From NCBI RefSeq assembly GCF_900105115.1, contig NZ_FNRV01000001.1, positions 5,893,501 to 5,957,500 on the forward strand: DNA of 64,000 nt, read 5' to 3'. Within the stretch, counting starts at the first letter, position 1. Every line of letters begins with the position of its first letter. Shown here in pieces: positions 32,896 through 53,490 of this stretch. The notes beneath the pieces were generated by a model. It was not told the DNA's origin. It ran no database searches and worked only from the letters and a program-made list of their open reading frames with translations. The DNA is from Pseudomonas mohnii. GTDB taxonomy: Bacteria; Pseudomonadota; Gammaproteobacteria; Pseudomonadales; Pseudomonadaceae. The translations under genes and the position numbers were made by a program.

Positions 32896-32946
32896 CACCG
32901 GTGGCTCCTGATATCCGTCAGTCAAGGATAGTTGGAACGGCGAATG

Positions 32947-32982
32947 AACCGTGGCGAGGGAGCGGGCTCCCTCGCCACGGTT
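32947..32982. terminator. Long perfect hairpin, REP-derived
   Basis: A 17-bp perfect stem with a 2-base loop (arm AACCGTGGCGAGGGAGC at 32947-32963). It lies between the 3' end of the porin gene and the 5' end of the GNAT gene on the same strand. The arm belongs to the GTGGCGAGGGAGC REP family, collapsed to a hairpin; it could attenuate or terminate minus-strand transcription. Confidence 0.55.
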
Positions 32983-33039
32983 GTGACGATGCCACTTCTG
33001 GCTGAATTCAGTTCCGGGACAATGGGCGTAAACCTCGGC

Positions 33040-34341
33040 CTACCAGAACTTGAACGTGTACGCGACGATCAGGCGATTTTCATCCACGTCGGTCGTTGCG
33101 CTGCCGCGATACGTGACATTGCGCCAGCGCAGGCTCAGGTTTCGTAAAGGCCCGCTCTGGATCACGTAGGCAATGTCGGTATTGCGCTCCCACTCTTTGG
33201 CGGCAACGCCTCGAATCTCGAAATCATTGCCTCGCATGTAGCGGGTCATCAATGTCAGTCCGGGCAGGCCCATGGGGGCAAAGTCATAGTCATAGCGCAA
33301 TTGCCAGGAATCTTCCCTGGCCCGGACAAAGGGTTGGTATGTGCCGTTATTCAAGGCCCAGGGATCGGCAACCGACAAATAGGGAAGTCCGGTGTCGCCA
33401 CGTTGGTTTTGATAACCAAGGCCCAGGGAATGGCCGCGGCTGCTCACCGTGAACATGCCACCCAAATAGCGGTTGTCGACGTTGGTATGGCCTTCGTTAT
33501 CGCTGCCGAAGTAGCGTAGGTCGGCCTTGAAGTTGACGCTTTCGGTCAACGCCGACTTGTATAAAAGGCTGGCGGCATTCTGGCTGTAATTGTCCTTCAG
33601 TTCGGCGCGGTAAAACGTGGCGCTGAGATTGGGCTGGAGGGCGTAGGTCGCGCCTGCGTAGTTGAAACGGTCTGTGGGCACGCCGCCGGTAGAGCCATCG
33701 GCCGCCATGCGCATGTCTTCATAGTCTGACGAGTCGCGCTGATGGGCCTGGCGAAATTGTCCGGCGGTGAGGCTCAGGTTCTGGATGTCAGTGGAGACGA
33801 CCTGACCACCCTGATAGGTTTGTGGCAACAGCCGTGTGTCATTGCGGAACAACACGGGCATGACCGGTTCGTGGTTGCCGAGGGTGACCAGGGTCTTGGC
33901 GACTTTGAGCTTGGCGGTCGGCGCCAGGAAACTGTACTCGTCGACGGGCTCGCCAGTCCGTTGATTGCGCTGCAGGACACCCGTACCACTGCTGCCGCCG
34001 CCGGAGTCGAGCTTGACGCCGACCAGCCCCAGGACATCAAGGCCAACGCCGACCGTACCCTCGGTGAACCCGGAGTTACCGCGCAGAATGAAGCCTTGTG
34101 CCCAGTCTTCGGCCTTGCTCTGAGGCTTGCCATCATGGCGCGGTCCGTCGGACAGACCCGCATCCCGGTAATCGCGATTCATGTAGAAATTTCGTGTTTC
34201 CAGGCTCATGTGGCTGTCGGCGACCAGGTCTGCATGGGCCTGTGTCGCGAGCAATAACGCAGACACACAAGTGGCTTTCAAGGAATACCGGGCGCGAGTC
34301 GGCCCGGCCAGATGCCCAGTGACGGGATTGGCTGTACGCAT
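33040..34341 (-). CDS. OprD-family outer-membrane porin
   Basis: A 433-residue OprD/OpdK-type channel with a signal peptide ending in LLLATQAHA at about residue 37. The mature chain begins with the family's SHMSLETRNFYMNRDYRD, contains alternating beta strands, and ends in Phe/Trp (YTFKFW), the BAM recognition end. OprD family channels import small acids; BenF- and OpdK-like members take up aromatic and hydroaromatic acids. It is the last gene in a minus-strand run with aliB and the MarR regulator, so it is the likely uptake porin for cyclohexanecarboxylate. A poor match with classical OprD loops leaves the substrate open. Confidence 0.88.
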   Translation of the reverse strand: MRTANPVTGHLAGPTRARYSLKATCVSALLLATQAHADLVADSHMSLETRNFYMNRDYRDAGLSDGPRHDGKPQSKAEDWAQGFILRGNSGFTEGTVGVGLDVLGLVGVKLDSGGGSSGTGVLQRNQRTGEPVDEYSFLAPTAKLKVAKTLVTLGNHEPVMPVLFRNDTRLLPQTYQGGQVVSTDIQNLSLTAGQFRQAHQRDSSDYEDMRMAADGSTGGVPTDRFNYAGATYALQPNLSATFYRAELKDNYSQNAASLLYKSALTESVNFKADLRYFGSDNEGHTNVDNRYLGGMFTVSSRGHSLGLGYQNQRGDTGLPYLSVADPWALNNGTYQPFVRAREDSWQLRYDYDFAPMGLPGLTLMTRYMRGNDFEIRGVAAKEWERNTDIAYVIQSGPLRNLSLRWRNVTYRGSATTDVDENRLIVAYTFKFW

Positions 34342-34459
34342 GATGTGATGTTCCTGCCTGCCGTGAGTTGTTTTTGTTGTTCAGCCAGCCCCTGGAAAGG
34401 GCTGTTCAGGGTTTTATGAACAATGACGCTTGGGCGAGGGCAGGAAGGTTGGGATCAGC

Positions 34460-34939
34460 CTATTGCGCCTCGTCGTCTTGCTGCTCGCTACCGAGCGATA
34501 TGGCGGCCATGTCGCCCTGTAGCTTGTTGAGGTAATGCAGCAGGCTGACGCTGTCGTCGAAACTGAAGCCTTTCAATGCCTGCTGGTAAAACGTCTGGAT
34601 CCTTTCCTGCAGAGAGTCCCAGAATGTCCTGCCGGTATCGGTCAACTGCACCAGGCGGGCACGTCCGTCATCCGGGTGGGGCACGCGCAGCACATGGTTG
34701 TCGCGCTCCATGCGCTTGAGTACACCGTCCAGGCTCTGGCGACTGACGAACAGGTATTCGGTCAGTTCAAAGAACGAAATACCCCCTTCATAACGTTCGC
34801 GTGACAGTGCGCCGAGCACGGCCCATTGCACCGTGCTGATGCCCATCTCTTTCTGGACTTGCCTTTGCAGCACGTTACCGGTCTGGAACAACCGGAAAAA
34901 CAGCGTATTGGGTACGGATCGGGTATCGCTATTGTTCAT
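34460..34939 (-). CDS. badR: MarR-family regulator, BadR-like
   Basis: A 159-residue winged-helix regulator (VQWAVLGALSRE, LFVSRQSLDGVLKRMERDNHV, HPDDGRARLVQLTDTG). In Rhodopseudomonas palustris the MarR protein BadR controls the badHI-aliAB-badK genes and responds to a CoA intermediate. Here the gene lies 73 bases after aliB and just before the porin, within the same set of genes, so it is probably the local controller. The ATG at 34939 follows AAGGA by 6 bases. Its site is probably the 39604-39613 palindrome. The symbol is by analogy. Confidence 0.75.
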   Translation of the reverse strand: MNNSDTRSVPNTLFFRLFQTGNVLQRQVQKEMGISTVQWAVLGALSRERYEGGISFFELTEYLFVSRQSLDGVLKRMERDNHVLRVPHPDDGRARLVQLTDTGRTFWDSLQERIQTFYQQALKGFSFDDSVSLLHYLNKLQGDMAAISLGSEQQDDEAQ

Positions 34940-35012
34940 CAATGTTCCTTGTCGGCTCCGTAAGGACGAGCGCGGCTGTATGAGCGCCCGGCCTGGCGGA
35001 GCAGGCAGGGCA

Positions 35013-36152
35013 TCAGTTGGGGACAAATTCGCGCGCGATGATATTTTTCATGATCTGCGCGGTGCCGTCACCGATTTGCAGGCCAAGTACATCGCGCAAG
35101 CGCTGGGCGAACGGCAGGTCCTCGCCGTAACCGGTGTGCCCATGGGCCAGCAGGCACTGCTTGACCACATCGAACGCCAGTTTCGGTCCCCACCATTTGT
35201 TCATGGCCGCCTCGGCATTGTGCGGCAGCTTATTATCCTTGAGCCACAAGGCGTAATAGCACTGCAGGCGCGCAGCATGCACGTAGGTCTGCAATTCTGC
35301 CAGTGGGTGGGTCAAACCCTGAAAGGAAGACAACGCCTGGCCGAAGGCCTTGCGTTCGGTCAGCCATTGCCAGGTTTCATCCAGCGACTGCTGGGCCAAT
35401 GCCAGGCACTGCAGGCCGATCAGGGCGCGGCTGTAGTCGAAGCCCTGCATCACCTGTTTGAATCCCTTATTTTCATCGCCCAGGCGATGGCTGGCCGGCA
35501 CTTCAACGTTGTCGAAGAAAATCGACCCGCGGCCAATGGCACGCTCGCCGGCATCCTCGAAACGGGTGGTGCTGATGCCCGGCAGGTTCATGGGCACCAG
35601 AAAAGCGCTGATGCCGCTGGCGCGTTGCTCCACGGTGCCGGTGCGGGCGAAGACCACGGCGACATCCGCCTGATCGGCCATGGATATAGACGTCTTCTCG
35701 CCGTTGAGCACATAGACGTCGCCTTTGAGTTCGGCCTTCAGGCGCAAGCTGGCAGCGTCGGACCCGCCGCCGGGTTCGGTCAGGGCAATACAGGCGACCT
35801 TGCGCCCGGCCGTCATTTCACCCAGCCATTCCCGGGCCAGCGATGCGTCGGCGTAGCGGGCGATGATCTGGCCGTTCAACGACGTCAGCAGTGGGATGTA
35901 CGCGACGTTGAAGTCGCCACGGGCCAGTTCTTCGATGATCAGGCCGGCGGTGACACAGTCCAGGCCGCTGCCGCCGAACTCCTCAGGCAGTTCGCCGCCA
36001 AGCAGGCCCATTTCGCCCATTTGGGCAATGACTTCGCGCTCGATGCGGCCGTCGCGATCCCGCTGGCGGTAACCGGGGGCGAGGACGTCAGCGCTGAATC
36101 GTGCAACGCTGTCGCGGATGGCATTTTGTTGTTCTGTGAATGCGAAATTCAT
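35013..36152 (-). CDS. aliB: Cyclohexanecarboxyl-CoA dehydrogenase-like acyl-CoA dehydrogenase
   Basis: A 379-residue FAD acyl-CoA dehydrogenase. ACIALTEPGGGSDAASLRL is the FAD/substrate segment; the C-terminus reads LQIGDGTAQIMKNIIAREF. It should oxidise cyclohexanecarboxyl-CoA to cyclohex-1-ene-1-carboxyl-CoA, passing electrons to ETF. The neighbours (badI 60 bases ahead, badH, aliA) fix the pathway. At the position of the usual catalytic Glu (YEG in MCAD-type enzymes) the sequence has Asp362 (GDG). The ATG at 36152 gives the conserved start MNFAFTEQQ. Confidence 0.85.
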   Translation of the reverse strand: MNFAFTEQQNAIRDSVARFSADVLAPGYRQRDRDGRIEREVIAQMGEMGLLGGELPEEFGGSGLDCVTAGLIIEELARGDFNVAYIPLLTSLNGQIIARYADASLAREWLGEMTAGRKVACIALTEPGGGSDAASLRLKAELKGDVYVLNGEKTSISMADQADVAVVFARTGTVEQRASGISAFLVPMNLPGISTTRFEDAGERAIGRGSIFFDNVEVPASHRLGDENKGFKQVMQGFDYSRALIGLQCLALAQQSLDETWQWLTERKAFGQALSSFQGLTHPLAELQTYVHAARLQCYYALWLKDNKLPHNAEAAMNKWWGPKLAFDVVKQCLLAHGHTGYGEDLPFAQRLRDVLGLQIGDGTAQIMKNIIAREFVPN

Positions 36153-36211
36153 GATGCTCTCCAGGCCATTCGGGTGCTGAACCGGCAGCGCCATGGCTGC
36201 CGGCGCAGGGA

Positions 36212-36994
36212 TCATTTGTAGAATTTACGGAACTCGGGCTTGCGCTTTTCCTTGAAAGCGGCGACGCCTTCCCTGGACTCCTCAGTGTCGTAGTACAGGC
36301 TCAGGGCCTGCATGCCGAGGCCGCCGATGCCGCCGATGTTGGCGCTGTCGGCATTGAACGAGCGCTTGGCGATGGACAGCGCGGTAGGGCTCTTCTCGAG
36401 AATTTCCTCGCACCATTTCTGTACTTCTTCATCGAGCTGATCGTGGGGCACCACGGCGTTGACCAGCCCCCAGTCAAGCGCCTGGCGGGCGCTGTACTTG
36501 CGGCACAGGTACCAGATTTCGCGGGCGCGTTTTTCGCCGATCAGGCGCGACAGGTAGGCGGTGCCGTAGCCTGGGTCGACCGAGCCGACCTTGGGGCCGA
36601 CCTGGCCGAACACCGCGTTTTCGGAGGCGATGCTCAGGTCGCAGACCACGTGCAGCACGTGCCCGCCACCGATGGCGAAGCCGTTGACCCGTGCGATCAC
36701 TGGCTTGGGTACTTCGCGGATCAGGTTCTGCAGCTCTTCGACCGGCAGGCCGATCAGGCCGCGGCCGTCGTACTGGCCTTCATGAGCGCCCTGGTCGCCT
36801 CCGGTGCAGAAGGCCTTGTCGCCTGCGCCGGTGAAGACGATGACGCCGATTTCCTTGTTCCAGCCGGCGCGGTTGAACGCGTCAATCAGCTCCATGCAGG
36901 TCTGGCCGCGGAATGCGTTGTAGCGCTCGGGGCGGTTGATGGTGATGGTCGCGACACCGTTGAGTTCTTGGTACAGGATGTCTTCGTAGTTCAT
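36212..36994 (-). CDS. badI: 2-ketocyclohexanecarboxyl-CoA hydrolase (ring-opening)
   Basis: A 260-residue crotonase-superfamily enzyme with the same length as R. palustris BadI. It opens the ring of 2-ketocyclohexanecarboxyl-CoA to pimeloyl-CoA. The MenB-like signature is clear: FCTGGDQGAHEGQYDGRG, GPKVGSVDPGYGTAYLSRLI and REIWYLCRKYSA, which is the mark of BadI and MenB (Dieckmann or retro-Dieckmann chemistry) rather than ordinary hydratases. It ends in RKPEFRKFYK. The ATG at 36994 follows GGGAGAG. It lies 31 bases downstream of badH. Confidence 0.93.
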   Translation of the reverse strand: MNYEDILYQELNGVATITINRPERYNAFRGQTCMELIDAFNRAGWNKEIGVIVFTGAGDKAFCTGGDQGAHEGQYDGRGLIGLPVEELQNLIREVPKPVIARVNGFAIGGGHVLHVVCDLSIASENAVFGQVGPKVGSVDPGYGTAYLSRLIGEKRAREIWYLCRKYSARQALDWGLVNAVVPHDQLDEEVQKWCEEILEKSPTALSIAKRSFNADSANIGGIGGLGMQALSLYYDTEESREGVAAFKEKRKPEFRKFYK

Positions 36995-37025
36995 TGCATG
37001 CTCTCCCATATGAGTATCGTCTGGC

Positions 37026-37793
37026 TTAGCCAGCCATCGTCAGGCCGCCGGACACGCTGATGACTTGACCGGTGATGAAATTGGCATCGTCGCTGGCGAG
37101 CAGGGCGATGATTCCCGGATAGTCTTCCGGTTGGCCGAGTCGGCGCATCGGCACGGCATTCTTGAAGGCTTCCAGGAGCTTTTCCGGGTTGCTGGAGGTT
37201 TCGGCCACGCTTTTGAGCAGCGCGGTGTCGGTCGGACCGGGGCAGACCACGTTGACGTTGATGTTCTTGGTCGCCAGCTCCCGCGCCAGGGTTTTGCTCA
37301 AGCCCACCAGGCCAGCCTTGCAGGCTGCATAGACGGCCTCGCCCGACGAGCCGACGCGGGCGGCATCAGAGGCAATGTTGATGACTTTGCCGCCACCGGC
37401 CTCGAGCATTTTCGGCAGCACCACGTGGTGCATGTTCAGGGCACCGGTCAGGTTGATCGAAATCAGCTGCTCCCAGAGCTTTGGTTCGGTCTTGAGAAAC
37501 GGCATGAAGCGGTCGAACCCGGCGTTGTTGACCAGTACGGTCGGCACACCCAAGTCTTTTTCGATGGCCGCCACGGTCTGGGTGATGGCGTCGTAGTCGG
37601 CGATGTCGGCGGCATAGGCGACTGCTTTTCCACCGGCTTCGCGGATCAGGTCGACGGTGACCTGCGCCGCAGCGCTGTCGCGATCCAGCACCGCCACCCG
37701 GCTGCCTTCGGCGGCGAAGCGCTGGCACACCGCGCGGCCGATGCCGCCGCCCCCGCCAGTGATGATCACGGTTTTTCCACTAAGGCCTTTCAT
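37026..37793 (-). CDS. badH: 2-hydroxycyclohexanecarboxyl-CoA dehydrogenase
   Basis: A 255-residue short-chain dehydrogenase, the same length as BadH. It has NAD motif TGGGGGIG at 12-19, LVNNAGFDRF, the catalytic Ser in INIASDAARVGSSG and YAACKAG (Tyr/Lys). BadH oxidises 2-hydroxycyclohexanecarboxyl-CoA to the 2-keto ester with NAD. The gene starts 46 bases after the aliA stop and is followed by badI, the same order as in R. palustris. General SDR similarity alone would allow other substrates; the neighbours settle it. Confidence 0.9.
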   Translation of the reverse strand: MKGLSGKTVIITGGGGGIGRAVCQRFAAEGSRVAVLDRDSAAAQVTVDLIREAGGKAVAYAADIADYDAITQTVAAIEKDLGVPTVLVNNAGFDRFMPFLKTEPKLWEQLISINLTGALNMHHVVLPKMLEAGGGKVINIASDAARVGSSGEAVYAACKAGLVGLSKTLARELATKNINVNVVCPGPTDTALLKSVAETSSNPEKLLEAFKNAVPMRRLGQPEDYPGIIALLASDDANFITGQVISVSGGLTMAG

Positions 37794-37839
37794 GGGGCAT
37801 TCTCCAAGTCAGTTGAGTTGCGTGTATCGAGTGTGTTGA

Positions 37840-39504
37840 TCAGCGACGCTTGGCCGGGTCGATGCGAATGTTCGCGGCCCGCTCGTGCAGCTTGAATTTC
37901 TGGATCTTCCCGGAGGGCGTGCGGGGCAGGGCAGGCAGCACCTCCAGGTACTCGGGCAAATAGTTGCGCGACAGACTGTGTTCGAGCAGAAAGGTCACCG
38001 CGTCATCGAGGCTCAGCTCCGTGTAGCCGTCATGCAACGTGACGTAAGCGCAGACACGCTCACCGAGTCGCTCGTCGGGGCAGCCCACCAGGGCCGCCGC
38101 CGAAATGGCCGGGTGCTTGTAGAGCAGGTTTTCCACCTCAACCACCGGAATGTTTTCGCCGCCGCGGATGACGACATCCTTTGTTCGTCCGGTGATGCGG
38201 ATGTAGCCCTGGGCATCCATACGGGCCAGGTCTCCGGTGGAGAACCAGCCCTGGGCGTCAACGCCGTAGAGATCGGGGCGCTTGAGGTAGCCCACGAACA
38301 GGCTCGCGCCGCGGACCTGAAGATGGCCTTCGCTGCCGGCGGGCAGCGCAAGCCCGGCATCATCGACCACCCGCACATCCATGAGCGGTAGCACCACGCC
38401 GTCGCTGTAGATGGCCCGCTCGGGATCGTCCTGCGGACGCGTCATGGTGGCAGCGCCGGTTTCGGTCATGCCCCAGGCCGAGATGATTTTCGCGTTGATG
38501 CTGTTGCCAGCCTTTTCCACCAGGCTTTCCGGAATGGGCGCGCCGGCCGAGACAAAAAAACGCAGGCTCGTGAGCGCGTCACCATTGTCCGGTGCGAGCT
38601 CGATCAAATCGGCGAGAAACGGTGTTGAGGCCATCGTGAAAGTCGGGCGCTCGGCGGCGGCGATCCTTATGGCGGTGCGCGCATCCCAGACGTCTTGCAG
38701 TACCGCTGCCGCGCCGAGGTAGATGGGCATCATCAGACCGTAGAGAAAACCGGTCTGGTGAGCCATGGGCGAGGCCATGAAGATAATGTCTTCGTGGCCA
38801 AGCCCCAGGCGCTCGGCATAAGGAATGATATTGCTCAGCAGGGTCCTGGAGGTGTGCAGCACCCCTTTGGGTTCACCCGTGGTGCCGGAAGTGAAGAGCA
38901 GCTGGAGAATATCGTCGGCCTGGGGGCGTCGTTCTGCGAACAGCGCCTGGGTATCGCAGTGCTTTTCCCATTCCCGCTCGAGCAGTTGCTGTTCAAAGCT
39001 GTTGTGACCGTCACCCCCTATCACCAGTACATGGCGCAGTTCCGGCAGGTCGGTGCGCAGGCCTTCGGCCATGCTGGCGTAATCGAAACCCCGGAAGTGT
39101 TTGGGCACGACCAGAAGATGACTGCGGGCGTGGCCGAGCATGAAGCGCAGTTCGCGTTCCCGAAAGATCGGCATCAGCGGGTTGAACACCGCGCCGATAC
39201 GGGCACAGGCCAGGAACAAGGCTGTCATCTGCCAGCCGTTGGGCAACTGGCAGGACACCACACTGCCTTTTTCCACACCCAGGGCGGCCAGGCCGGCACC
39301 CATGCGGGTGACCACGGCATCCAGTTCGCCGTAGGTAAACGAGACAGGATTGTTCTCGCCAGCCTGGTAGCTCGACAGGGCGCGACAGCCTTGGCCTCGT
39401 GCAACCTGTATACCCCAGTAATCTGTAATGATCATGTCACTGATAGCGCTTGTGGAGGACGCTTCCGGATGACGATCTGGTGGTGTGGCTGTCCAGGTGT
39501 TCAT
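37840..39504 (-). CDS. aliA: Cyclohexanecarboxylate-CoA ligase
   Basis: A 554-residue AMP-forming acyl-CoA synthetase with the P-loop TSGTTGEPKG, the later GMTETGAATMT, YGVDAQGWFSTGDLARMD and the catalytic C-terminal Lys in RTPSGKIQKFKLHER. AliA activates the acid to the CoA ester at the cost of ATP. It is the first gene of the minus-strand operon and divergent from badK. I keep the ATG at 39504; the leader of about 20 residues (MNTWTATPPDRHPEASSTSA) is poorly conserved, and an ATG at 39435 (MIITDYWG) is an alternative. Confidence 0.88.
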   Translation of the reverse strand: MNTWTATPPDRHPEASSTSAISDMIITDYWGIQVARGQGCRALSSYQAGENNPVSFTYGELDAVVTRMGAGLAALGVEKGSVVSCQLPNGWQMTALFLACARIGAVFNPLMPIFRERELRFMLGHARSHLLVVPKHFRGFDYASMAEGLRTDLPELRHVLVIGGDGHNSFEQQLLEREWEKHCDTQALFAERRPQADDILQLLFTSGTTGEPKGVLHTSRTLLSNIIPYAERLGLGHEDIIFMASPMAHQTGFLYGLMMPIYLGAAAVLQDVWDARTAIRIAAAERPTFTMASTPFLADLIELAPDNGDALTSLRFFVSAGAPIPESLVEKAGNSINAKIISAWGMTETGAATMTRPQDDPERAIYSDGVVLPLMDVRVVDDAGLALPAGSEGHLQVRGASLFVGYLKRPDLYGVDAQGWFSTGDLARMDAQGYIRITGRTKDVVIRGGENIPVVEVENLLYKHPAISAAALVGCPDERLGERVCAYVTLHDGYTELSLDDAVTFLLEHSLSRNYLPEYLEVLPALPRTPSGKIQKFKLHERAANIRIDPAKRR

Positions 39505-39577
39505 TTATAAGTATCGACTCTTAAGGGTTGGAATTGTTGTTTTCTTACGATCTGGTATTGCCCTTTCGATGAGCTGA

Positions 39578-39606
39578 AGATAAGGCTTTCAAAATTAATG
39601 TGTCAA
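39578..39606 (-). promoter_or_regulatory. Sigma-70 promoter of the aliA operon
   Basis: On the minus strand: -35 TTGACA (39601-39606), 17-base spacer, -10 TTATCT (39578-39583). The -35 is a perfect consensus. Transcription would start near 39571, about 67 bases before the aliA ATG. Confidence 0.8.
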
Positions 39607-39613
39607 CATGTTG
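39604..39613. promoter_or_regulatory. Palindromic operator shared by both operons
   Basis: CAACATGTTG is a perfect 10-bp palindrome. It overlaps the last three bases of the aliA-side -35 (39601-39606) and the first three of the badK-side -35 (39611-39616), so one bound dimer could block both. MarR-family dimers bind palindromes of this kind; BadR-like 34460-34939 is the obvious candidate. Confidence 0.7.
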
Positions 39614-39639
39614 TCTTTAATTTTTTCTGTGGATATATT
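39611..39639 (+). promoter_or_regulatory. Sigma-70 promoter of the badK operon
   Basis: -35 TTGTCT (39611-39616), 17-base spacer, -10 TATATT (39634-39639). Start near 39646, about 28 bases before the badK ATG. Confidence 0.75.
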
Positions 39640-39673
39640 CGAAACCCATACCGAACAACAAGAGGTAGGTGAC

Positions 39674-40450
39674 ATGGCTTTCCTGAATATCCTTGTCGAG
39701 CAGCGTGCAGCCGTCGGCCTGATCCGTTTGAATCGCCCGGCTGTCCATAACGCCCTCAATGATGCCTTGATGACCGAGCTGGGCCAGGCGCTGCTGGCCT
39801 TCGAGGCCGATGAGCGGATTCGGGCCGTCGTCATTACCGGCAACGACAAAGCCTTCGCGGCCGGTGCCGATCTCAGCGAATTGCAGTTCAAGGGGTTTGC
39901 CGATGTGTACCTGGAGGATTTCGTCACGGCCAACTGGGAGACCGTCACCCGCTGCCGCAAGCCGGTGATCGCCGCGGTTGCCGGCCTGGCGCTGGGCGGG
40001 GGCTGCGAGTTGGCGATGATGTGCGACATGGTCATCGCCGCCGACAACGCTCGATTCGGCCAGCCCGAAGTCAAGGTCGGCACGTTGCCCGGTGCCGGCG
40101 GCACCCAGCGCCTGACCCGCGCCATCGGCAAGGCCAAGGCCATGGACCTGTGCCTGACCGGGCGCTTCATGGAAGTCGATGAGGCCGAGCGCTGCGGCTT
40201 GATCAGTCGCGTGGTGCCCCTGGCAGACCTGCTGGATGAAGCCCTGGCCGTGGCCGCACAGATTGCCGCTCACCCGGCGATCGCGGTGAAACTCAATAAA
40301 GAAGCGGTCAACCGTGCCTTCGAAACCACCCTGGCCGAGGGTGTGCAGTTCGAGCGGCGATTGATGCACGCCAGTTTCGCCAGTCAGGACCAGAAGGAGG
40401 GCATGCAGGCCTTCGCTCAGAAGCGCCAGCCGGTATGGACCCATCGCTGA
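39674..40450 (+). CDS. badK: Cyclohex-1-ene-1-carboxyl-CoA hydratase
   Basis: A 258-residue crotonase, the same length as BadK. It adds water to cyclohex-1-ene-1-carboxyl-CoA. The oxyanion-hole segments AAGADLSELQF and VAGLALGGGCELAMMCD and the two catalytic Glu contexts (GGCELA, and PEVKVGTLPGAGGTQRL) are present. It is the first gene of the plus-strand operon, preceded by AGAGGTAGGTGAC. Sequence alone looks like a general enoyl-CoA hydratase; the badK call rests on the divergent aliA-badHI-aliB operon and shared control region. Confidence 0.82.
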   Translation: MAFLNILVEQRAAVGLIRLNRPAVHNALNDALMTELGQALLAFEADERIRAVVITGNDKAFAAGADLSELQFKGFADVYLEDFVTANWETVTRCRKPVIAAVAGLALGGGCELAMMCDMVIAADNARFGQPEVKVGTLPGAGGTQRLTRAIGKAKAMDLCLTGRFMEVDEAERCGLISRVVPLADLLDEALAVAAQIAAHPAIAVKLNKEAVNRAFETTLAEGVQFERRLMHASFASQDQKEGMQAFAQKRQPVWTHR

Positions 40451-40501
40451 GAAACGCGATCGATTGGCAAGCCGCATAACTATAAGAAGAGGAGCTGTCC
40501 G

Positions 40502-41362
40502 ATGACTTCAGTCGTACAAATGACGCGAGAGGCAGGCGTGGCCTTGATCCGGGTCGACAACCCGCCGGTCAATGCCCTCGGTCACGCCGTGCGCGTCGGG
40601 CTGTTGCAAGCGTTCATGGCGGCCGAGCGGGACGGGCAGGTCGAGTTGATCATGCTCTATTGCGCAGGCAAGACCTTTATTGCCGGTGCCGATATTCGCG
40701 AGTTCGGCCAACCGGCCCAGGCGCCGATCCTGCAGGAACTGACCCTGGCCATCGAGAACGGCAGCAAGCCCTCGCTGGCGGTGTTGCACGGCTCCGTGCT
40801 GGGTGGCGGGCTGGAAGTCGCGCTGGGCTGTCACTACCGCATCGCTCACCGTGCCACCCGGCTCGGCCTGCCGGAAACCCGTCTGGGTTTGCTGCCCGGG
40901 GGCGGCGGCAGCCAACGCCTGCCGCGCTTGGTGGGTGTGCAAAGCGCGCTGGACATGATCATCGGCGGCGAGCCGATCGAGGCAACCCGGGCACTGGAGC
41001 TCGGTCTTGTTGACGCACTGTTCGACGATGAGCCTCTGGTTGCAGGCCTTGCGCATGCGCGGCACCTGTTGGCCGAGCGCGTGGGCGTGCGGCGCGTCGG
41101 CCAGATGACGATACCAACGACGTCTGCCGAGGCCAGTGCATTGATCGCGGCCCGGCGCAGCGAAATCGGCCGCACCCAGGCTGATTCGTTCTCGGCACCG
41201 CGCTGCCTCGCTGCGATCGAAGCGGCGATCCATATGCCATTGATCGAAGGGTTGCAGCGCGAGCGCGCGCTGTTTCTCGAATGCATGGCATCGCCCCAGC
41301 GCGCAGCGCTGATCGAAGATTTCTTTGCCCGGCGCCAGACAGCCAAGAGCGGCCGACGCTGA
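40502..41362 (+). CDS. Enoyl-CoA hydratase, stand-alone FadB/PimF N-domain type
   Basis: A 286-residue crotonase that hydrates the linear enoyl-CoA of the lower pathway. VDNPPVNALGHAVRVGL, GKTFIAGADIREFGQ, VLHGSVLGGGLEVALGCHYR and LPETRLGLLPGGGGSQRLPR fit the N-terminal half of multifunctional FadB/FadJ/PimF proteins; the C-terminal ALFLECMASPQRAALIEDFF is the linker seen there before the dehydrogenase half. Here the dehydrogenase half is a separate gene (45500-47020). Expected substrate: 2-heptenedioyl-CoA from pimeloyl-CoA. Confidence 0.82.
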   Translation: MTSVVQMTREAGVALIRVDNPPVNALGHAVRVGLLQAFMAAERDGQVELIMLYCAGKTFIAGADIREFGQPAQAPILQELTLAIENGSKPSLAVLHGSVLGGGLEVALGCHYRIAHRATRLGLPETRLGLLPGGGGSQRLPRLVGVQSALDMIIGGEPIEATRALELGLVDALFDDEPLVAGLAHARHLLAERVGVRRVGQMTIPTTSAEASALIAARRSEIGRTQADSFSAPRCLAAIEAAIHMPLIEGLQRERALFLECMASPQRAALIEDFFARRQTAKSGRR

Positions 41363-41410
41363 ACCTGCGGCCAGCCTGGTGTTGGCCTGACCATCGACCG
41401 AGGATTTTGC

Positions 41411-42607
41411 ATGGACATCCACTACACACCCGCCGAGCTTGAGTTCCGCACCGAGGTGCGTGCTTTCCTGCGTGACGCGCTGCCGGCGGACATCGCCAAT
41501 AGCGTTCGCCTGGGCAAGCGTCTGAGCAAGGACGACCACCAACGCTGGCAGCGCATCCTTGCCCGGCGTGGCTGGTACGCGGCCAATTGGCCGGTGACCT
41601 TTGGTGGCACCGGTTGGAGCGTGGTGCAAAAACACATTTTCGAGCAGGAGTGCGCCGCCTTCGGTGCGCCGCGCCTGATCTCCTTCGGCGTCAATATGGT
41701 TGCGCCGGTGATCATGAAATTCGGCAACCCGGCGCAGCAGGCGCATTACCTGCCACGCATCCTGAGCGGAGAAGACTGGTGGTGCCAGGGCTACTCGGAA
41801 CCGGGTGCCGGTTCGGACCTGGCCAGCCTCAAGACCCGCGCCGTGCGCGAGGGCGACCACTATGTGGTCAATGGCCAGAAGACCTGGACCACGCTCGGCC
41901 AGCACGCCAACATGATTTTCTGCCTGGTGCGCACGGACAGCGAAGCCCGGCAGCAGCGGGGCATTTCTTTCCTGCTGATCGACATGACCACGCCGGGCAT
42001 CAGCGTTCGCCCGATCATCACGCTCGAGGGCGAGCATGAGGTCAACGAAGTGTTCTTCGACAACGTCCGCGTGCCAGTGGAAAACCTGGTGGGCGAAGAG
42101 AACCAGGGCTGGACCTGCGCCAAATACCTGCTGACCCACGAGCGCACCGGGCAGGCTGGCATCGGCCAATCCAAGGCAGCCTTGGCGCACCTCAAAGCGG
42201 TCGCCCGGCAGGAGTTGCGCAACGGCCGGCCGTTGCTGCAGGACCCGCAGTTTCGCTTGCAGGTCGCCCAGGTGGAGATTGAGCTGCTGGCCATCGAGAT
42301 GAGCACCTTGCGCATCCTCGCTGCTGCCCAGGCCGGCGGTGTGCCCGGTGCCGAAAGCTCGATCCTGAAAATCAAAGGCTCGGAAATTCGCCAGGCCATC
42401 AGTCACCTGTTGCGCAAGGCGCTGGGCGCCAAGGCGTTGCCTTTCGTCGAAGCGCAATTGACCGACGACTTTACCGGCACTGCGCTGCACAGCGACTACA
42501 GCGCCGCCCCCGCCAGCCAGTATTTCAACCTTCGCAAGCTGTCTATCTACGGCGGCTCCAATGAAATTCAAAAGAACATCATCGCCAAGATGATTCTTGA
42601 GCTTTAA
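41411..42607 (+). CDS. pimC: Acyl-CoA dehydrogenase, PimC-like subunit
   Basis: A 398-residue acyl-CoA dehydrogenase close in length to PimC (about 396) of R. palustris, the large subunit of pimeloyl-CoA dehydrogenase. Features: ANWPVTFGGTGWS, CQGYSEPGAGSDLASLKT, QKTWTTLGQHA and FNLRKLSIYGGSNEIQKNII. The usual catalytic Glu in the C-terminal YEG position is Gly here (YGG), as in large subunits that work only with a partner. The partner gene follows 11 bases later. The pim name is by analogy. Confidence 0.8.
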   Translation: MDIHYTPAELEFRTEVRAFLRDALPADIANSVRLGKRLSKDDHQRWQRILARRGWYAANWPVTFGGTGWSVVQKHIFEQECAAFGAPRLISFGVNMVAPVIMKFGNPAQQAHYLPRILSGEDWWCQGYSEPGAGSDLASLKTRAVREGDHYVVNGQKTWTTLGQHANMIFCLVRTDSEARQQRGISFLLIDMTTPGISVRPIITLEGEHEVNEVFFDNVRVPVENLVGEENQGWTCAKYLLTHERTGQAGIGQSKAALAHLKAVARQELRNGRPLLQDPQFRLQVAQVEIELLAIEMSTLRILAAAQAGGVPGAESSILKIKGSEIRQAISHLLRKALGAKALPFVEAQLTDDFTGTALHSDYSAAPASQYFNLRKLSIYGGSNEIQKNIIAKMILEL

Positions 42608-42618
42608 GGAGGCACGCA

Positions 42619-43761
42619 ATGGACTTCACACTCAGCTCCGAGCAGCAAATGCTGCAAGACACCGTGGCCCGACTGGCCCGCGATCACTACAGCTTCGAAG
42701 CCCGCGAAGGCTATTACCACAGCGAAGCCGGCATGAGCCCGGTGTTCTGGAACCAGATGGCAGAACTGGGCCTGTGTTCGGTGCCGATTGCCCAGGAACA
42801 TGGCGGCTTCGGTGGCAGCGGCGTGGACAACCTGCTGATCATGACCGAGCTCGGTCGCCACCTGTGCCTGGAGCCCTTCCTGCAGTCGCAGATTCACGCG
42901 GCCGGCCTGCTGCAACAACTCGGTGATGCCAGCCAAAAGGCAGACCTGCTGCCGCGGGTGGCCGAAGGCTCACTGCAACTGGCGGTGGCTCTGGAAGAAC
43001 TGCAAAGCCATTACCAGCTGCACGATGTGCAGACCCAGGCGCGCCCGGTCGAGGGTGGCTGGTGCCTGTCCGGGCGCAAGATCTGTGTGGTGGGCGCGGC
43101 CAGTGCGGGATTGATCCTGGTGTCGGCACGAACCAGCGGTGATACACGTTGCGAACAGGGCATCAGCCTGTTTCTGGTCGAGGCGCAAGTCCATGGGTTG
43201 CAGCGTCGCGATTACCCCTGCATCGATGGCCCGCGAGCCAGTGATCTGATTCTCGACGATGTCTTTGTGTCCCGGGGTGCTTTGCTCGGTGACATCGGCG
43301 AAGCCTTGCCGGCGTTGCGTTATCAGCAGGGTCGGGCCATTGCCGGGCAGTGCGCCGAGGCCGTCGGCGGTATGCAGGAAGCTTTTCGCCTGACCCTCGA
43401 CTACCTGAAGACGCGCAAGCAGTTCGGCACGCCAATCGGCAAATTCCAGGTGCTGCAGCATCGCATGGCCGACATGTGCGGCGAGCTGGAAATGGCCACC
43501 TCCATGGCCATCCTTGCCGCCTGTGTGGCTGATCAAGCCGACGGCGACGAACGCAGCCGGCAACTGGCCGCCGCGAAGTTCGTGGTGGTCCGCGCCGCGC
43601 GCCTGATCGCCGAGCAAGCGATCCAGTTGCACGGTGGTATCGGCATGACCTGGGAGTACAGCCTGGCCCATCACGCCAAGCGCCTGGTGATGCTGGGTCA
43701 TCAATTGGGCGATGACGATCACCATTTGCAGGCCTACGCCGAGCTGCTGCACAGCGCCTGA
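42619..43761 (+). CDS. pimD: Acyl-CoA dehydrogenase, PimD-like subunit
   Basis: A 380-residue acyl-CoA dehydrogenase of the same length as R. palustris PimD. It begins [20 protein letters not shown] and has the [20 protein letters not shown] segment and [20 protein letters not shown]. PimC and PimD-type subunits form a heteromer; together they should oxidise pimeloyl-CoA to the 2-enoyl ester. Spacing to pimC (11 bases) suggests tightly coupled expression. The FAD-binding centre is less conserved than in homomeric enzymes. Confidence 0.78.
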
Positions 43762-43795
43762 CCGATCACTGCACTCACACGGGAACACACTATCT

Positions 43796-44545
43796 ATGAA
43801 AGTACTGGTTGCGGTAAAACGTGTGGTTGATTTCAACGTCAAGGTTCGCGTGAAGGCGGACCACTCCGGCGTTGACCTTGCCAACGTCAAGATGGCGATG
43901 AACCCCTTCTGCGAAATCGCCGTGGAAGAAGCGGTGCGCCTCAAAGAACAAGGGATTGCCACCGAGGTGGTGGTCGTCAGCATCGGCGGCAGTGCGGCAC
44001 AGGAGCAACTGCGCACCGCGCTGGCGCTGGGTGCCGACCGCGCCATCCTGGTCGAATCCGCCGAAGATCTGACGTCCCTGGCCGTTGCCAAACTGTTGAA
44101 AGCGGTTGTCGACAAGGAACAGCCTCAGCTGGTGATCCTTGGCAAACAGGCCATCGACAGCGACAACAACCAGACAGGCCAGATGCTCGCTGCGTTGAGC
44201 GGTTACGGTCAGGGCACGTTCGCGTCCAAAGTCGAAATCAGCGGCGACAGCGTCGCGGTGACCCGCGAAATCGACGGCGGCGCGCAGACTGTTTCCCTGA
44301 AGCTGCCAGCCATCGTCACCACCGACCTGCGGTTGAACGAGCCGCGCTACGCGTCGTTACCCAACATCATGAAAGCCAAGAAGAAGCCGCTGGAGGTGCT
44401 CACGCCGAACGCCCTGGGCGTCAGCTGTGCCAGCACTGTGCACACCTTGAAAGTCCAGGCACCGGCCGCGCGTAGCGCCGGGATCAAGGTCAAGTCGGTG
44501 GCCGAACTGGTCGAAAAACTGAAGAACGAGGCGAAGGTAATCTAA
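43796..44545 (+). CDS. etfB: Electron transfer flavoprotein beta subunit
   Basis: A 249-residue ETF beta chain. [20 protein letters not shown] is the classic N-terminus, followed by [33 protein letters not shown] and [20 protein letters not shown]. It carries AMP and, with the alpha chain, one FAD, and takes electrons from the acyl-CoA dehydrogenases of the operon. Its stop overlaps the next start (TAATG). Pseudomonas has a housekeeping etfBA elsewhere, so this pair appears dedicated. Confidence 0.95.
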
Positions 44546-45489
44546 TGGCTATCCTGGTTATCGCTGAACACACCCACGCAGCACTGGCGGCTGCCACCCT
44601 CAACACCGTGACGGCTGCGCAGCAGATCGGCGGCGATATTCATGTGCTGGTCGCCGGTCAGGGCGCGGGCGCCGCGGCAGAGGCGGCGGCGAAGGTGGCA
44701 GGCGTGACGAAAGTGCTGCTGGCCGACAACGCTGCCTACGCGCACGGGTTGCCGGAAAACGTCGCGCCGTTGATCGTCGCGCTTGTTCAAGAAGCCGGGG
44801 CTGACAGCTACAGCCATATCCTGGCTGCCGCCACGTCCAATGGCAAAAACATCCTGCCGCGCGTCGCCGCCGCACTGGACGTCGACCAGATCTCCGAGAT
44901 CATCGCGGTCGAAAGCGCCGATACCTTCAAGCGCCCGATCTATGCGGGCAACGCCATCGCGACGGTGCAGTCCTCTGCCCGCGTGAAGGTGATCACCGTG
45001 CGCGGCACCGGATTCGATGCCGCTGCCGCCGAAGGGGGCAACGCCGTCATCGAAGCGCTCGCCTTGGTCACCGACAGCGGTCAGTCGGTCTTCGTCAGTG
45101 AAGAATTGGCCAAGTCCGATCGCCCGGAGCTGACCGCCGCGAAGATTGTTGTGTCGGGTGGCCGTGGCATGCAGAACGGTGACAACTTCAAACACCTCTA
45201 TGCGCTGGCCGACAAGCTTGGCGCGGGCGTGGGTGCATCGCGTGCCGCCGTCGATGCCGGTTTTGTACCCAACGACATGCAAGTCGGTCAGACCGGCAAG
45301 ATCGTCGCGCCGCAGTTGTACATCGCGGTGGGCATCTCGGGTGCCATCCAGCATCTGGCCGGCATGAAGGACTCCAGGGTCATCGTGGCGATCAACAAGG
45401 ACGAAGAGGCGCCGATCTTCCAGGTCGCCGACTACGGCCTGGTGGCGGATCTGTTCGACGTCGTGCCGGAACTGGAACGGGCGATTTGA
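44545..45489 (+). CDS. etfA: Electron transfer flavoprotein alpha subunit
   Basis: A 314-residue ETF alpha chain. The C-terminal FAD domain is clear: [55 protein letters not shown] and the final [19 protein letters not shown]. It donates electrons to ETF-quinone oxidoreductase. The gene overlaps etfB by one base and is followed 10 bases later by the 3-hydroxyacyl-CoA dehydrogenase. Confidence 0.95.
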
Positions 45490-45499
45490 GGAGGTGCTT

Positions 45500-47020
45500 G
45501 TGAATACGTTCAAACAGATCGGTGTGATCGGCAGCGGCGCGATGGGCCGGGGGATCGCCCACTTGTTCGCCACCGCTGGTGTTCCGGTGTTGCTGTATGA
45601 CAGTCGCAGTGAAGCGACGCAGGAGGCGCTGCAAGCCAATCGGGCGTTGCTTGAGCGTGCCGCCGCCAAGGGCAAGTTGAGCCGTGAAGCACTGGCCGGC
45701 GCACTGGCTTGCATGGGGGCGGCCACTCACCTTGAAGCCCTTGCCGATTGCGATTTATTGATCGAGGCGATCGTTGAAAACCTTGAGGCCAAGCAGGGGT
45801 TGTTCCGTGCGCTGGAACAAGTGGTCAGGGCCGACGCGGTGCTGGCGACCAACACCTCATCCTTGTCGGTGAGCCTGATTGCCAGTGCCTGCCGGCATCC
45901 CGAGCGAGTGGCCGGGTTTCACTTTTTCAACCCGGTGCCACTGATGAAAATCGTCGAAGTGGTGCGTGGTGAACTGACCGACCCGCAGGTGGTTCAGCGC
46001 CTGGCGGCGTTGGCCGGGCACGCCGGTCACTTTGCCGCGACGACCCCCGACTCTCCGGGCTTCCTGGTCAATCATGCCGGGCGGGCCTTCGGTCCGGAGG
46101 CCTTGCGTATCCTGGGCGAGGGGATCGCCACCCCGGCGCAGATCGATCGCATCCTCAAGGACAGCCTCGGCTTTCGCATGGGGCCGTTCGAGCTGTTTGA
46201 CCTGGTTGGCCTCGACATTTCCCATGCGGTGATGGAGTCGATACACGCGCAGTTTTATCAGGACCCGCGCTACACCCCGTCGGCACTGGTGCCACCTCGC
46301 CTGGCCAGCGGCCTGCTGGGGCGCAAGACAGGCCAGGGCTTCTATCGCTATCAGGACGGTAGCGTGGTCGAGGAAGCGCCGCAGGCGCCGCCGCAGGTGG
46401 CCATCACCCAGCCATTCTGGCTGGACTGCGACGACTCGGTCATGCGCGAGCGGATAGCCGCGGTGCTGTCCGTTGCCGGCGTTGTGCTGGAGCAGGGCGA
46501 TCAACCCAGTGCGAGCGCCATCTGCCTGGTGACGCCGCTGGGGGAGGATGCCAGCAGCGTGATCGCCCGCAAGCGACTGCCGTCGCGACGCAGCCTGGCA
46601 CTGGAAACCTTCGTCGGTTTCGACGCGCGTCGCGTACTGATGCGTCAACCGGCGCTCGACGCGCTGGTTCTGGCTCAGGCGTGCCAGGCCCTGGGCGCCG
46701 ATGGCGTGCCGGTGGAAGTCATCAATGACTCGCCAGGCTTTATCGCCCAGCGTGTGCTCGCCGGGATCGTCAACCTGGGTTGCGAGATTGCCCAGCGTCG
46801 CATCGCCGAGCCGGCCACCCTGGACCGTGCGGTGCAGTTGGCCCTCGGTTACCCCCATGGTCCGTTGGCTTTTGGTGACCGATACGGGGCGTTGCAGATC
46901 TGGCAGATCCTGCACCAACTGCATGAGCTGTATCAGGAGCCGCGCTATCGGGCCAGCCCCTGGCTGCGCCGCCGGGTCCAGCTCGGCCTGCCCCTGACCA
47001 CCCCCGAGGACCCAGCATGA
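45500..47020 (+). CDS. 3-hydroxyacyl-CoA dehydrogenase, PaaH-type
   Basis: A 506-residue NAD-dependent dehydrogenase with two C-terminal 3HCDH domains, as in PaaH/PaaC. It has NAD motif [25 protein letters not shown], the catalytic-site [17 protein letters not shown] and [15 protein letters not shown], and again [18 protein letters not shown] in the second unit. It oxidises the 3-hydroxy acyl-CoA (here 3-hydroxypimeloyl-CoA). The start is a GTG at 45500 after GAGGAGG. It overlaps the thiolase gene by 4 bases. Confidence 0.9.
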
Positions 47021-48219
47021 CGGCTTATATCTACGATGGCCTGCGTTCACCCTTCGGTCGCCACGGTGGCGCGTTGGCCGGTGTGCGTCCCGATGACCTG
47101 CTGGCCTCTGTCGTGCGCGCGCTGGTGGCGCGTAACCCGTTTGAGGTGCGCGACTATGAAGACTTGATCGCCGGCTGCAGCAGCCAGGCCGGTGAGGACG
47201 GGCGCAACCTGGCGCGCCATGTTGCGCTGCTGTCCGGCTTGCCGACGGCCGTTGGCGGTTTGACCGTCAATCGTCTCTGCGGCTCTGGCCTGGCGGCTGT
47301 ACTGGATGCTGCCCGCGCCGTGCGCTGCGGCGAAGGCGAGCTGTTTATTGCGGGCGGCGTGGAGAGCATGAGCCGGGCGCCGTTCGTGGTGGCCAAGGCG
47401 CCAAGCGCCTGGTCCCGTGACTTTCAAGTGTACGACAGCACCCTCGGCCCGCGTTTTCCCAACCCGAAGGTAGAGTCCGGGTTCGGTGCCGATTCGATGC
47501 CGCAGACAGCGGACAACGTCGCTCATGAACTGGGCATTACTCGCGAACAAGTCGACCGCTATGCCGCACGCAGCCAGGCGCTGTTCGACGCGGCGGTGCG
47601 GGAGGGTTTCCAGGCCGGTGAAATCCTGCCGATCGAAGTGCCGTCAGGGCGCAAGCAGCCGCCGAAGATCGTCGACCGTGACGAGCATCCGCGTCCACAA
47701 AGCAACTTCGAGGCGCTGTCGGGCCTGCAACCACTGTTTGACGACGGCGTTGTCACCGCAGGCAACGCCTCGGGCATCAATGATGGCGCGGCCGCGCTAC
47801 TGATTGGCTCGCGGGCCATGGGTGAGAAGGCGGGTCTGAGGCCTCGTGCGCGCATTTTGGCCGGAGCCGTGGCGGGGGTCGAACCACGATTGATGGGCCT
47901 TGGCCCGGTGCCGGCCTGCACCAAGGCCTTGCAGCGTGCAGGTTTGAGCCTGGCCGACATGGACCTGATCGAAATCAATGAAGCGTTTGCCGCGCAAGTG
48001 CTCGGCTGTGCCCGGCAACTTGACATCGCCTTCGATGATTCGCGCCTCAATCCCAACGGCGGTGCCATTGCCATTGGTCATCCGCTCGGTGCTTCCGGCG
48101 CACGCCTGGCCTATAGCGCGGTGCGACAACTGGAGCGCAGCAGCGGGCGCTACGCCCTGGTCAGTCTGTGCATTGGCCTGGGCCAGGGCATTGCGTGCGT
48201 GATCGAACGCCTCGACTGA
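47017..48219 (+). CDS. Thiolase, PcaF/PaaJ-type acyl-CoA acetyltransferase
   Basis: A 400-residue thiolase. It has nucleophilic Cys88 in NRLCGSGLAAV, ESMSRAPFV, NASGINDGAAALL, the catalytic His in GGAIAIGHPLGASGAR and the second Cys in CIGLGQGIA. It cleaves 3-oxoacyl-CoA; in this operon the expected products are glutaryl-CoA and acetyl-CoA from 3-oxopimeloyl-CoA, as in the dicarboxylyl thiolases PcaF/PaaJ. The ATG overlaps the preceding stop (ATGA). Confidence 0.92.
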   Translation: MTAYIYDGLRSPFGRHGGALAGVRPDDLLASVVRALVARNPFEVRDYEDLIAGCSSQAGEDGRNLARHVALLSGLPTAVGGLTVNRLCGSGLAAVLDAARAVRCGEGELFIAGGVESMSRAPFVVAKAPSAWSRDFQVYDSTLGPRFPNPKVESGFGADSMPQTADNVAHELGITREQVDRYAARSQALFDAAVREGFQAGEILPIEVPSGRKQPPKIVDRDEHPRPQSNFEALSGLQPLFDDGVVTAGNASGINDGAAALLIGSRAMGEKAGLRPRARILAGAVAGVEPRLMGLGPVPACTKALQRAGLSLADMDLIEINEAFAAQVLGCARQLDIAFDDSRLNPNGGAIAIGHPLGASGARLAYSAVRQLERSSGRYALVSLCIGLGQGIACVIERLD

Positions 48220-48255
48220 CAAAACACCACCCTCAAGAACCCGGAGAAATCACCC

Positions 48256-49437
48256 ATGGCGAACAAGGCAAGTTTCAACTGGATCGACCCGCTGCTGCTG
48301 GACCAGCAACTCACCGAAGAAGAGCGCATGGTGCGCGACAGTGCCCGGCAGTTCGCCGCCGATAAGCTGGCACCACGGGTGCTGGAGGCTTTTCGTCATG
48401 AGCAGACCGACCCGGCCATCTTTCGCGAGATGGGCGAAACAGGCCTGCTCGGTGCCACTCTTCCGCAAGCCTACGGCGGCAGCGGCCTGAACGCTGTGTG
48501 CTATGGCCTGATCGCTCGGGAAGTCGAGCGCGTGGACTCTGGCTACCGTTCAATGATGAGCGTGCAGTCCTCGCTGGTCATGGTGCCGATCAATGAGTTC
48601 GGTAACGAAGCCACCAAACAGAAGTACCTGCCGAAGCTGGCCAGCGGTCATTACATCGGTTGCTTCGGCCTGACCGAACCGAACCACGGCTCCGATCCGG
48701 GCTCGATGATTACCCGGGCAAGAAAAGTCGAAGGCGGCTACCGCCTCACCGGGAACAAGATGTGGATCACCAACAGCCCGATCGCCGATGTCTTCGTGGT
48801 CTGGGCCAAAGACGATGAAGGGCAGATTCGCGGCTTCGTCCTGGAGAAAGGCTGGCAGGGCCTGAGCGCGCCGGTGATCCATGGCAAGGTCGGGCTGCGT
48901 GCATCGATTACCGGCGAAATCGTCATGGATAACGTGTTCTGCCCTGAAGAGAACGCTTTCCCTGAAGTGCGCGGTCTGCGCGGCCCGTTCACCTGCCTGA
49001 ACTCGGCACGCTACGGGATCGCCTGGGGCGCGCTCGGTGCGGCTGAAGATTGTTGGCACACTGCGCGCCAGTACGTGCTGGATCGCATCCAGTTTGGCCG
49101 CCCGTTGGCTGCCAACCAGTTGATCCAGAAGAAGCTGGCGGACATGCAGACCGAAATAACCCTGGCCTTGCAAGGTTGCCTGCGCCTGGGGCGGATGAAG
49201 GACGAAGGCACGGCCGCGGTTGAAATCACTTCGATCATGAAGCGCAACAGCTGCGGCAAGTCGCTGGAGATCGCGCGCCTGGCGCGGGATATGTTGGGCG
49301 GTAACGGCATCAGTGACGAATTTGGCGTGGCCCGTCATCTGGTCAATCTGGAGGTGGTCAATACCTACGAAGGCACCCACGATGTGCATGCGCTGATCCT
49401 CGGTCGTGCGCAGACCGGTATTCAGGCGTTTTTCTGA
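48256..49437 (+). CDS. gcdH: Glutaryl-CoA dehydrogenase (decarboxylating)
   Basis: A 393-residue GcdH. It converts glutaryl-CoA to crotonyl-CoA and CO2, with electrons to ETF. Diagnostic are [15 protein letters not shown] with Arg98, matching the human Arg94 that holds the gamma-carboxylate, [15 protein letters not shown], and the catalytic Glu372 in [12 protein letters not shown]. It is the last gene of the plus-strand operon. Pseudomonas usually has gcdH with gcdR/gcdG for lysine breakdown elsewhere, so this copy looks pathway-specific. Confidence 0.93.
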
Positions 49438-51330: not shown

Positions 51331-51389
51331 GGGGATTACCGCGAGAAAGGATGAGGGCCGCTTCGAACATCGAAGCGGCGCGACCGGGT

Positions 51390-53457: not shown

Positions 53458-53490
53458 TGTCTAGTGCCTGTTGAGGACGTGGCTGGAGGT

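Follow-up and report, generated by a model that had tools for sequence, protein, structure and literature searches.

Does a single locus of Pseudomonas mohnii encode every step from cyclohexanecarboxylate (CHC, a ring acid of the petroleum type) to crotonyl-CoA? The question was raised by positions 33040–49437 of the window, the whole 64,000-nucleotide stretch analysed here (contig NZ_FNRV01000001.1, positions 5,893,501 to 5,957,500). The region holds two divergent gene sets. The minus-strand set runs from 39504 to 33040 in the order aliA-badH-badI-aliB-badR-porin; the plus-strand set runs from 39674 to 49437 in the order badK-hydratase-pimC-pimD-etfB-etfA-hydroxyacyl-CoA dehydrogenase-thiolase-gcdH. 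An open candidate gene was present for each step. The initial annotation had named these genes and held that they supplied every step, together with the electron transfer flavoprotein (ETF) pair etfBA and a MarR regulator; the frames were open, their best family matches agreed with the names, and each item had its candidate. The locus is very probably a bad-ali-aab-gcdH catabolic cluster for growth on CHC, a reading supported by the family models, by the order of the genes, by conserved catalytic motifs and by a putative operator of the BadR type.

The genes aliA, aliB, badH and badI were all present and adjacent. The predicted cyclohexanecarboxylate-CoA ligase gene aliA lies at 37840–39504, badH (2-hydroxycyclohexanecarboxyl-CoA dehydrogenase) at 37026–37793, badI (2-ketocyclohexanecarboxyl-CoA hydrolase, ring opening) at 36212–37009, and aliB (cyclohexanecarboxyl-CoA dehydrogenase) at 35013–36215, with a probable start near 36152 as read from the sequence. 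AliB scored 595.8 bits against TIGR03207, above the NCBIfam cut-off of 575.35, and BadI also exceeded the cut-off of its family, TIGR03210. The best families of BadH and AliA were TIGR03206 and TIGR03208, with scores below the cut-offs. The next-best BadI match in the genome had only 35% identity.

Alignment of AliB to solved acyl-CoA dehydrogenases showed Asp at the position of the catalytic Glu and Gly instead of Tyr just before it. Smaller residues in front of the catalytic base have been associated with substrates that carry a branch at the alpha- or beta-carbon (PMC11659651); this was the only paper to surface on acyl-CoA dehydrogenases with Asp as catalytic base and cyclohexane. AliB of the window has the motif IGDGT, as do all 17 of the 17 relatives read. 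Among four more distant AliB-like genes, it was present in L160, L161 and L163 and was not recovered in L162; the cluster around the L163 gene had no badI match. With 180.8 bits against a cut-off of 650, AliB fell outside NF043006 (cyclohexane-1-carbonyl-CoA dehydrogenase).

The locus encodes two different hydratases. The first scored 409 bits against PRK05862, above the cut-off of 396. Its frame opens at 39608, and its most likely start was moved to 39674, as the family alignment opens at residue 23. Naming it through its homologues failed: the best 120 of 8000 scored bear enoyl-CoA hydratase names or none, and the name BadK does not occur among them. The gene at 39674–40450 was taken as badK, for cyclohex-1-ene-1-carboxyl-CoA hydratase, because a similar hydratase adjoins aliA in two plasmid bad-ali clusters, of Marinobacter salarius (L160, 69% identity) and Paraburkholderia aromaticivorans (L161, 61%), on whose fetched stretches no pimCD match was found. 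The assignment in this analysis is by likeness to these plasmid hydratases, not to a characterised BadK.

The second hydratase (40502–41362), a candidate 2,3-didehydropimeloyl-CoA hydratase of PimF-N/AabB-like type, is a stand-alone domain. It is similar to the N-terminal domain of FadB/PimF-type proteins, and the five solved chains closest to it, all longer multifunctional enzymes, match it through their N-terminal part. At the same place, Pseudomonas genome G241 (locus L116, 8285–10414) has a 710-codon fused frame with hydratase and dehydrogenase matches and keeps a separate dehydrogenase gene as well. Homologues of 445–479 residues occur in P. fluorescens, Marinobacterium and Halomonas. The stand-alone hydratase looks like a trimmed PimF-type protein, the dehydrogenase role having apparently passed to the separate gene at 45494. 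Both crotonase-type glutamates, whose roles we assume for the two hydratases, were kept in BadK and in the second hydratase in alignments with relatives; rows in which a different hydratase or BadI had been matched instead were left out (L001, L003 and L010 for the second hydratase, L007 for BadK).

The acyl-CoA dehydrogenase, hydratase, 3-hydroxyacyl-CoA dehydrogenase and thiolase of the aab/pim lower pathway were all present. PimC (41411–42607) and PimD (42619–43761), the predicted large and small subunits of pimeloyl-CoA dehydrogenase, had TIGR03204 and TIGR03203 as their best families. The closest solved chains of PimC were 4x28_A and the Tcur3483 chain of 6wy8/6wy9, and that of PimD was the Tcur3481 chain 6wy8_A; the pair therefore maps onto two different chains of one entry, 6wy8. 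We take 4x28 and 6wy8/6wy9 to be heterotetrameric sterol side-chain dehydrogenases. PimC kept LLTHERTGQ in 15 of 15 rows, with Gly replacing the usual C-terminal Glu in all 15, and PimD kept TRxQF in 15 of 15. The catalytic Glu was thus on one subunit only and the FAD-site Arg motif on the other, as in alpha2beta2 acyl-CoA dehydrogenases of the PimCD/ChsE type; the roles of these residues are our assumption. PimC and PimD are likely to be two halves of one heteromeric enzyme with a shared active site. A heterotetramer has been suggested in print for PimCD-like proteins (PMC12543098).

The next genes are etfB (about 43796–44545; PF01012), whose start was moved from 43712 as the family alignment opens at residue 29, and etfA (44545–45489; PF00766 and PF01012); both products match ETF domains of Pfam. 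The PaaH/AabC-like 3-hydroxyacyl-CoA dehydrogenase (45494–47020) scored 621.2 bits against PRK08268 (cut-off 508), and the AabD-like 3-oxoacyl-CoA thiolase of the 3-oxoadipyl-CoA thiolase family (47017–48219) scored 676.8 bits against PRK08131 (cut-off 622). GcdH (48256–49437) was above no NCBIfam cut-off. Its closest solved structures were glutaryl-CoA dehydrogenases, matched over nearly the whole length (Burkholderia 3eom, 742 bits; human 1sir, 550 bits), and the active-site Arg and Glu of these two enzymes were aligned in GcdH, with the roles that we presume for them. A mis-named ordinary acyl-CoA dehydrogenase was considered and rejected; NCBIfam alone was ambiguous, and the solved structures settled the matter. 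By close homology and conserved active-site residues, GcdH is assigned as a decarboxylating glutaryl-CoA dehydrogenase.

The locus had also been described as self-contained. This holds for the gene list, but the genome has a second gcdH with 90% identity to the cluster copy and two further ETF alpha genes, each 86% identical to etfA. The ETF-quinone oxidoreductase family had one match in the genome, outside the cluster. Because gcdH and ETF alpha have close copies and the next BadI match is so distant, the steps supplied only by this locus seem to be the ring steps, not the last ones. The cluster gcdH was considered as a recent duplicate of the second copy, and the tree rejected this: the cluster copies of G000 (the window's own genome), G088 and G263 group with support of 94/96, and the other copy of G000 lies among non-cluster copies. 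On this tree two changes are required to account for the 11 cluster rows, which leaves a single origin undemonstrated, and the deepest forks are weak. Two of the 11 "house" rows (G001 and G241), a house gcdH being any copy outside the cluster whatever its neighbours, fall outside the main house clade.

The MarR-family gene badR (34460–35026, minus strand, possible start 34939 as read from the sequence; PF12802/PF01047) adjoins aliB in all eight other Pseudomonas cluster genomes and in L002 and L004. Two Marinobacter loci differ: in L001 and in L010, about 6 kb separates the best badR match from aliB. The palindrome CAACATGTTG has one exact copy in the window, at 39604–39613, 60 bases upstream of the badK start codon, and the longer version of 13 bases, TGTCAACATGTTG, is unique in the genome of 6.59 Mb. 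Near the aliA start, CAACATGTTG was exact in 16 of the 18 loci read, the window included (Pseudomonas 11/11, Marinobacter 4/5, Halomonas 1/2). At its place L006 has CAACATATTG and L007 has CAACTACTTG; L008, cut off there, is outside the 18-locus count. The palindrome was also found at plasmid cluster L160.

A consensus promoter scan of 16.8 kb gave two sites, both at the divergent region: TTGACA-18-TATCTT for the aliA operon (39577–39606, minus strand) and TTGTCT-17-TATATT for the badK operon (39611–39639, plus strand). TTGACA and TTGTCT overlap the two sides of CAACATGTTG. A MarR-type badR thus goes together with a putative operator of the CAAN4TTG form, the consensus reported for most Gram-negative clusters (PMC9795900), at divergent promoter-like sites. 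The arrangement looks like a single putative operator switching both operons. A CHC-inducible BadR system has been characterised in Cupriavidus necator (PMC7057948). A terminator after gcdH was not established, the region having 15 terminator-like sites against 13.7 in shuffles.

The biochemistry, BadR binding, effector and induction are proposed from these sequence features as follows. An OprD-family outer-membrane porin (33040–34341, minus strand; PF03573, 444.6 bits) would let CHC in, and AliA would form the CoA ester. AliB would desaturate it, BadK hydrate it and BadH oxidise it, and BadI would open the ring hydrolytically to give pimeloyl-CoA. Removal of acetyl-CoA by PimCD, the second hydratase, the dehydrogenase of PaaH type and the thiolase would then yield glutaryl-CoA, which GcdH would decarboxylate to crotonyl-CoA. 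Flavin electrons would pass through EtfBA to the ETF-quinone oxidoreductase encoded elsewhere in the genome. Bound to the one palindrome that touches the two -35 boxes, BadR would repress both operons, and it would release the DNA when a CoA ester of the pathway appears.

Several results weigh against this assignment. BadI exceeded its cut-off narrowly, by 1.4 bits (469 against 467.6). BadH reached 370.9 bits against a cut-off of 431.2 (next family 222.9), AliA 721.1 against 792.3 (next family 428.7), PimC 479.1 against 623.85 and PimD 342.9 against 652.7. The solved structure 7xp7, deposited as cyclohexanecarboxyl-CoA dehydrogenase, was absent from the 44 matches of AliB at E ≤ 1e-40. The annotated cluster genes include no inner-membrane transporter. 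The two promoter-like sites are no more than chance in number (shuffle mean 3.0), and degenerate CAAN4TTG is non-specific, with 30 copies in the window against 17.7 expected. The operator form of R. palustris and Aromatoleum, CAATnnATTG, had no exact copy in the cluster; as an operator here it was unsupported, one-mismatch copies numbering 20 in the window against 19.3 expected. The older route of aerobic CHC breakdown, reported in several genera including Pseudomonas, runs via 4-hydroxybenzoate (PMC9795900).

The shortfalls of BadH and AliA could mean that the true substrate of these enzymes is not CHC itself but a related ring acid, such as a substituted cyclohexane carboxylate, cyclohexenecarboxylate, cyclopentanecarboxylate or a terpene-derived acid. 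The lower-identity Pseudomonas BadI carriers L117 and L118 fit this reading, showing only badH and badI at more than 45% identity on the fetched stretch (for L118, 6,000 bases out of a contig of 11,032). So does the proposal that a badKHI cluster lacking aliAB acts on monoterpenes (PMC9795900). However, AliB and BadI are above their cut-offs, and both aliA and aliB are present and followed by the full pimeloyl route, which would fit an unsubstituted C7 skeleton. A related acid as the substrate is very unlikely. It was also considered that the plus-strand half is mainly a general beta-oxidation operon for dicarboxylates of the pimelate/adipate type that merely adjoins the bad-ali genes, a reading compatible with CHC catabolism. 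PimCD-like dehydrogenases affected fitness on longer dicarboxylic acids in beta-proteobacteria (PMC12543098), and the thiolase belongs to the 3-oxoadipyl-CoA family. Yet the plus-strand half begins with badK, one palindrome conserved in relatives touches both promoter-like sites, the two halves remain together in relatives, and Aromatoleum aabD and aabA are induced by CHC and not by pimelate (PMC9795900). Such an operon is judged highly improbable, and the assignment as a CHC cluster is preferred.

The distribution of the cluster was examined in 298 Pseudomonas genomes, with the window's own genome (G000) included in every count. BadI was found at E ≤ 1e-90 in 12, and nine carried the orthologous aliA-badH-badI-aliB-badR cluster. 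On the fetched stretches, five of the nine (G000, G088, G263, G251 and G241) had the full step set with etfBA and gcdH, although G241 has its second hydratase in fused form. On these stretches G203 is without etfBA, and G284 without etfBA and gcdH; in G244, etfBA, thiolase and gcdH were not on the fetched stretch, and in G207 a contig end cuts the cluster. The remaining BadI carriers (G278, G082 and G254) had part of the set only on the stretch read. Pseudomonas sp. BN102 carries the cluster too, cut by a contig end. P. jinjuensis carries it with no etfBA between pimD and the dehydrogenase, and its thiolase and gcdH were unmatched on the stretch examined. Since etfBA is missing from its usual place in four otherwise similar Pseudomonas clusters (L109, L112, L113 and L004), the ETF pair is an optional part. 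The porin adjoins the cluster in L108, L109, L111, L113, L002 and L004 and had no match above 45% identity in L112, L114, L115 and L116.

All eight Marinobacter/Halomonas loci (L001, L003 and L005–L010) matched aliA, badH, badI, aliB and badR, and in four (L001, L003, L007 and L010) pimCD and gcdH adjoin the upper genes. The two halves of the cluster stay together, in the same order, in relatives. Among 72,556 plasmid records, 69 had BadI matches at E ≤ 1e-60; identity was below 60% in 42 of these, some of which may therefore not be BadI. Plasmid pPAN3 of Paracoccus pantotrophus (L162), typed as conjugative, has matches of 35–72% identity to badR, badH, badI, aliB, aliA, hydratase, dehydrogenase, thiolase, gcdH and etfBA within 17 kb, a near-complete set from bad-ali to gcdH-etfBA. 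The four Marinobacter/Halomonas loci and this plasmid count against the claim that such a locus is unusual.

R. palustris, with its bad/ali and pim operons, shares the upper chemistry and the MarR-type repressor BadR, but its pim genes lie apart from bad/ali. It also differs in having one badH-badI-aliB-aliA-badK operon with badR divergent (PMC9795900). Supraoperonic bad-ali-aab clustering was defined, the aab genes named and Pseudomonas clusters listed by Sanz and Diaz in 2022 (PMC9795900), who found that the Aromatoleum cassette confers growth on CHC on P. putida KT2440. Like the present locus, that of Aromatoleum sp. CIB unites aliA, aliB, badH, badI, badK and badR with beta-oxidation genes to glutaryl-CoA and has CAAN4TTG-type operators at divergent promoters. 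Here, in contrast, badR follows aliB in the same direction, two-subunit pimCD replaces aabA as the first beta-oxidation dehydrogenase, the cluster takes in etfBA and gcdH, and both promoters share a single palindrome where Aromatoleum has two potential operators over two -35 boxes. Thauera phenolivorans has gcdH and etfAB with its bad-ali-aab cluster, an alike association in another genus, likened by text description only, and gcdH is associated in other Gram-negatives (PMC9795900). The nearest in genus and cluster type are the Pseudomonas clusters of group 3 in Figure 6 of PMC9795900 (P. silesiensis, P. fluorescens, P. sagittaria and Pseudomonas sp. TCU-HL1), compared by figure legend only; second-hydratase homologues carry all four names. 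For P. fluorescens Pf-5, the passages of PMC8289671 offer nothing at the gene level about bad genes. A Pseudomonas locus with all genes and its own ETF had been called unusual. This is not supported: clustering, presence in Pseudomonas and the gcdH/etfAB link were already in print, and five of the 298 genomes hold the full set with ETF.

The left flank was searched in 38 relatives, of which 22, the own genome included, had some match, and six with long matches were compared. In 6/6 the match ran up to 32886–32978 and resumed, after a gap of 18 to 816 bases, at 55313–55365 on the side of topB. The window thus has about 22.3 kb more at this site (roughly 32979–55312), or the six relatives have lost that much. 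G088 and G263 carry the cluster among different neighbours; their DNA similarity to the window stops at 49451 in G088 and begins at 33036 in G263, almost the borders of the initial annotation (33040 and 49437). The presence of the cluster at other places in these genomes favours gain over loss, and the cluster may move as a unit. No integrase or transposase was among the 19 annotated genes of the insert, and no exact direct repeats of at least 9 bases were found between 32851–33060 and 55151–55400. GC content was no guide (61.0% left of the insert, 62.2% in the cluster, 63.3% in the module to its right, 62.7% right of the insert).

That module, at 49624–55229 in the same insert, has four genes: two KstD/ChcC2-like FAD dehydrogenases, whose 508 and 449 bits are far short of the 900 required for ChcC2, an AroE-like protein and a PcaR/PobR-like IclR regulator (282.3 bits against a cut-off of 284.75). 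The same four genes lie together at other places in G009 and G012. A composite alicyclic-acid island, in which the ring-opening bad-ali-aab-gcdH cluster is joined to a separately regulated module aromatising oxo- or hydroxy-cyclohexane acids, seems unlikely; if real, it would unite both known strategies for such acids. Right of topB, at 57993–62503, an MFS metabolite symporter, a GMC oxidoreductase and a LysR regulator match five of the six insert-lacking relatives and are therefore part of the conserved flank.

The cluster is of a known kind and leaves knowledge of the pathway itself unchanged; added here are the shared palindrome, the 22.3-kb insert, a gcdH that is not a recent copy, and PimCD as the probable two halves of one enzyme. 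Among the components of oil residues, naphthenic acids are toxic and persistent. A compact, apparently intact Pseudomonas cluster that seems to cover every step, and that brings an electron carrier of its own and a single putative regulatory palindrome, would make a practical donor for engineering. Its likely mobility would fit the patchy occurrence in the genus (9/298 genomes).

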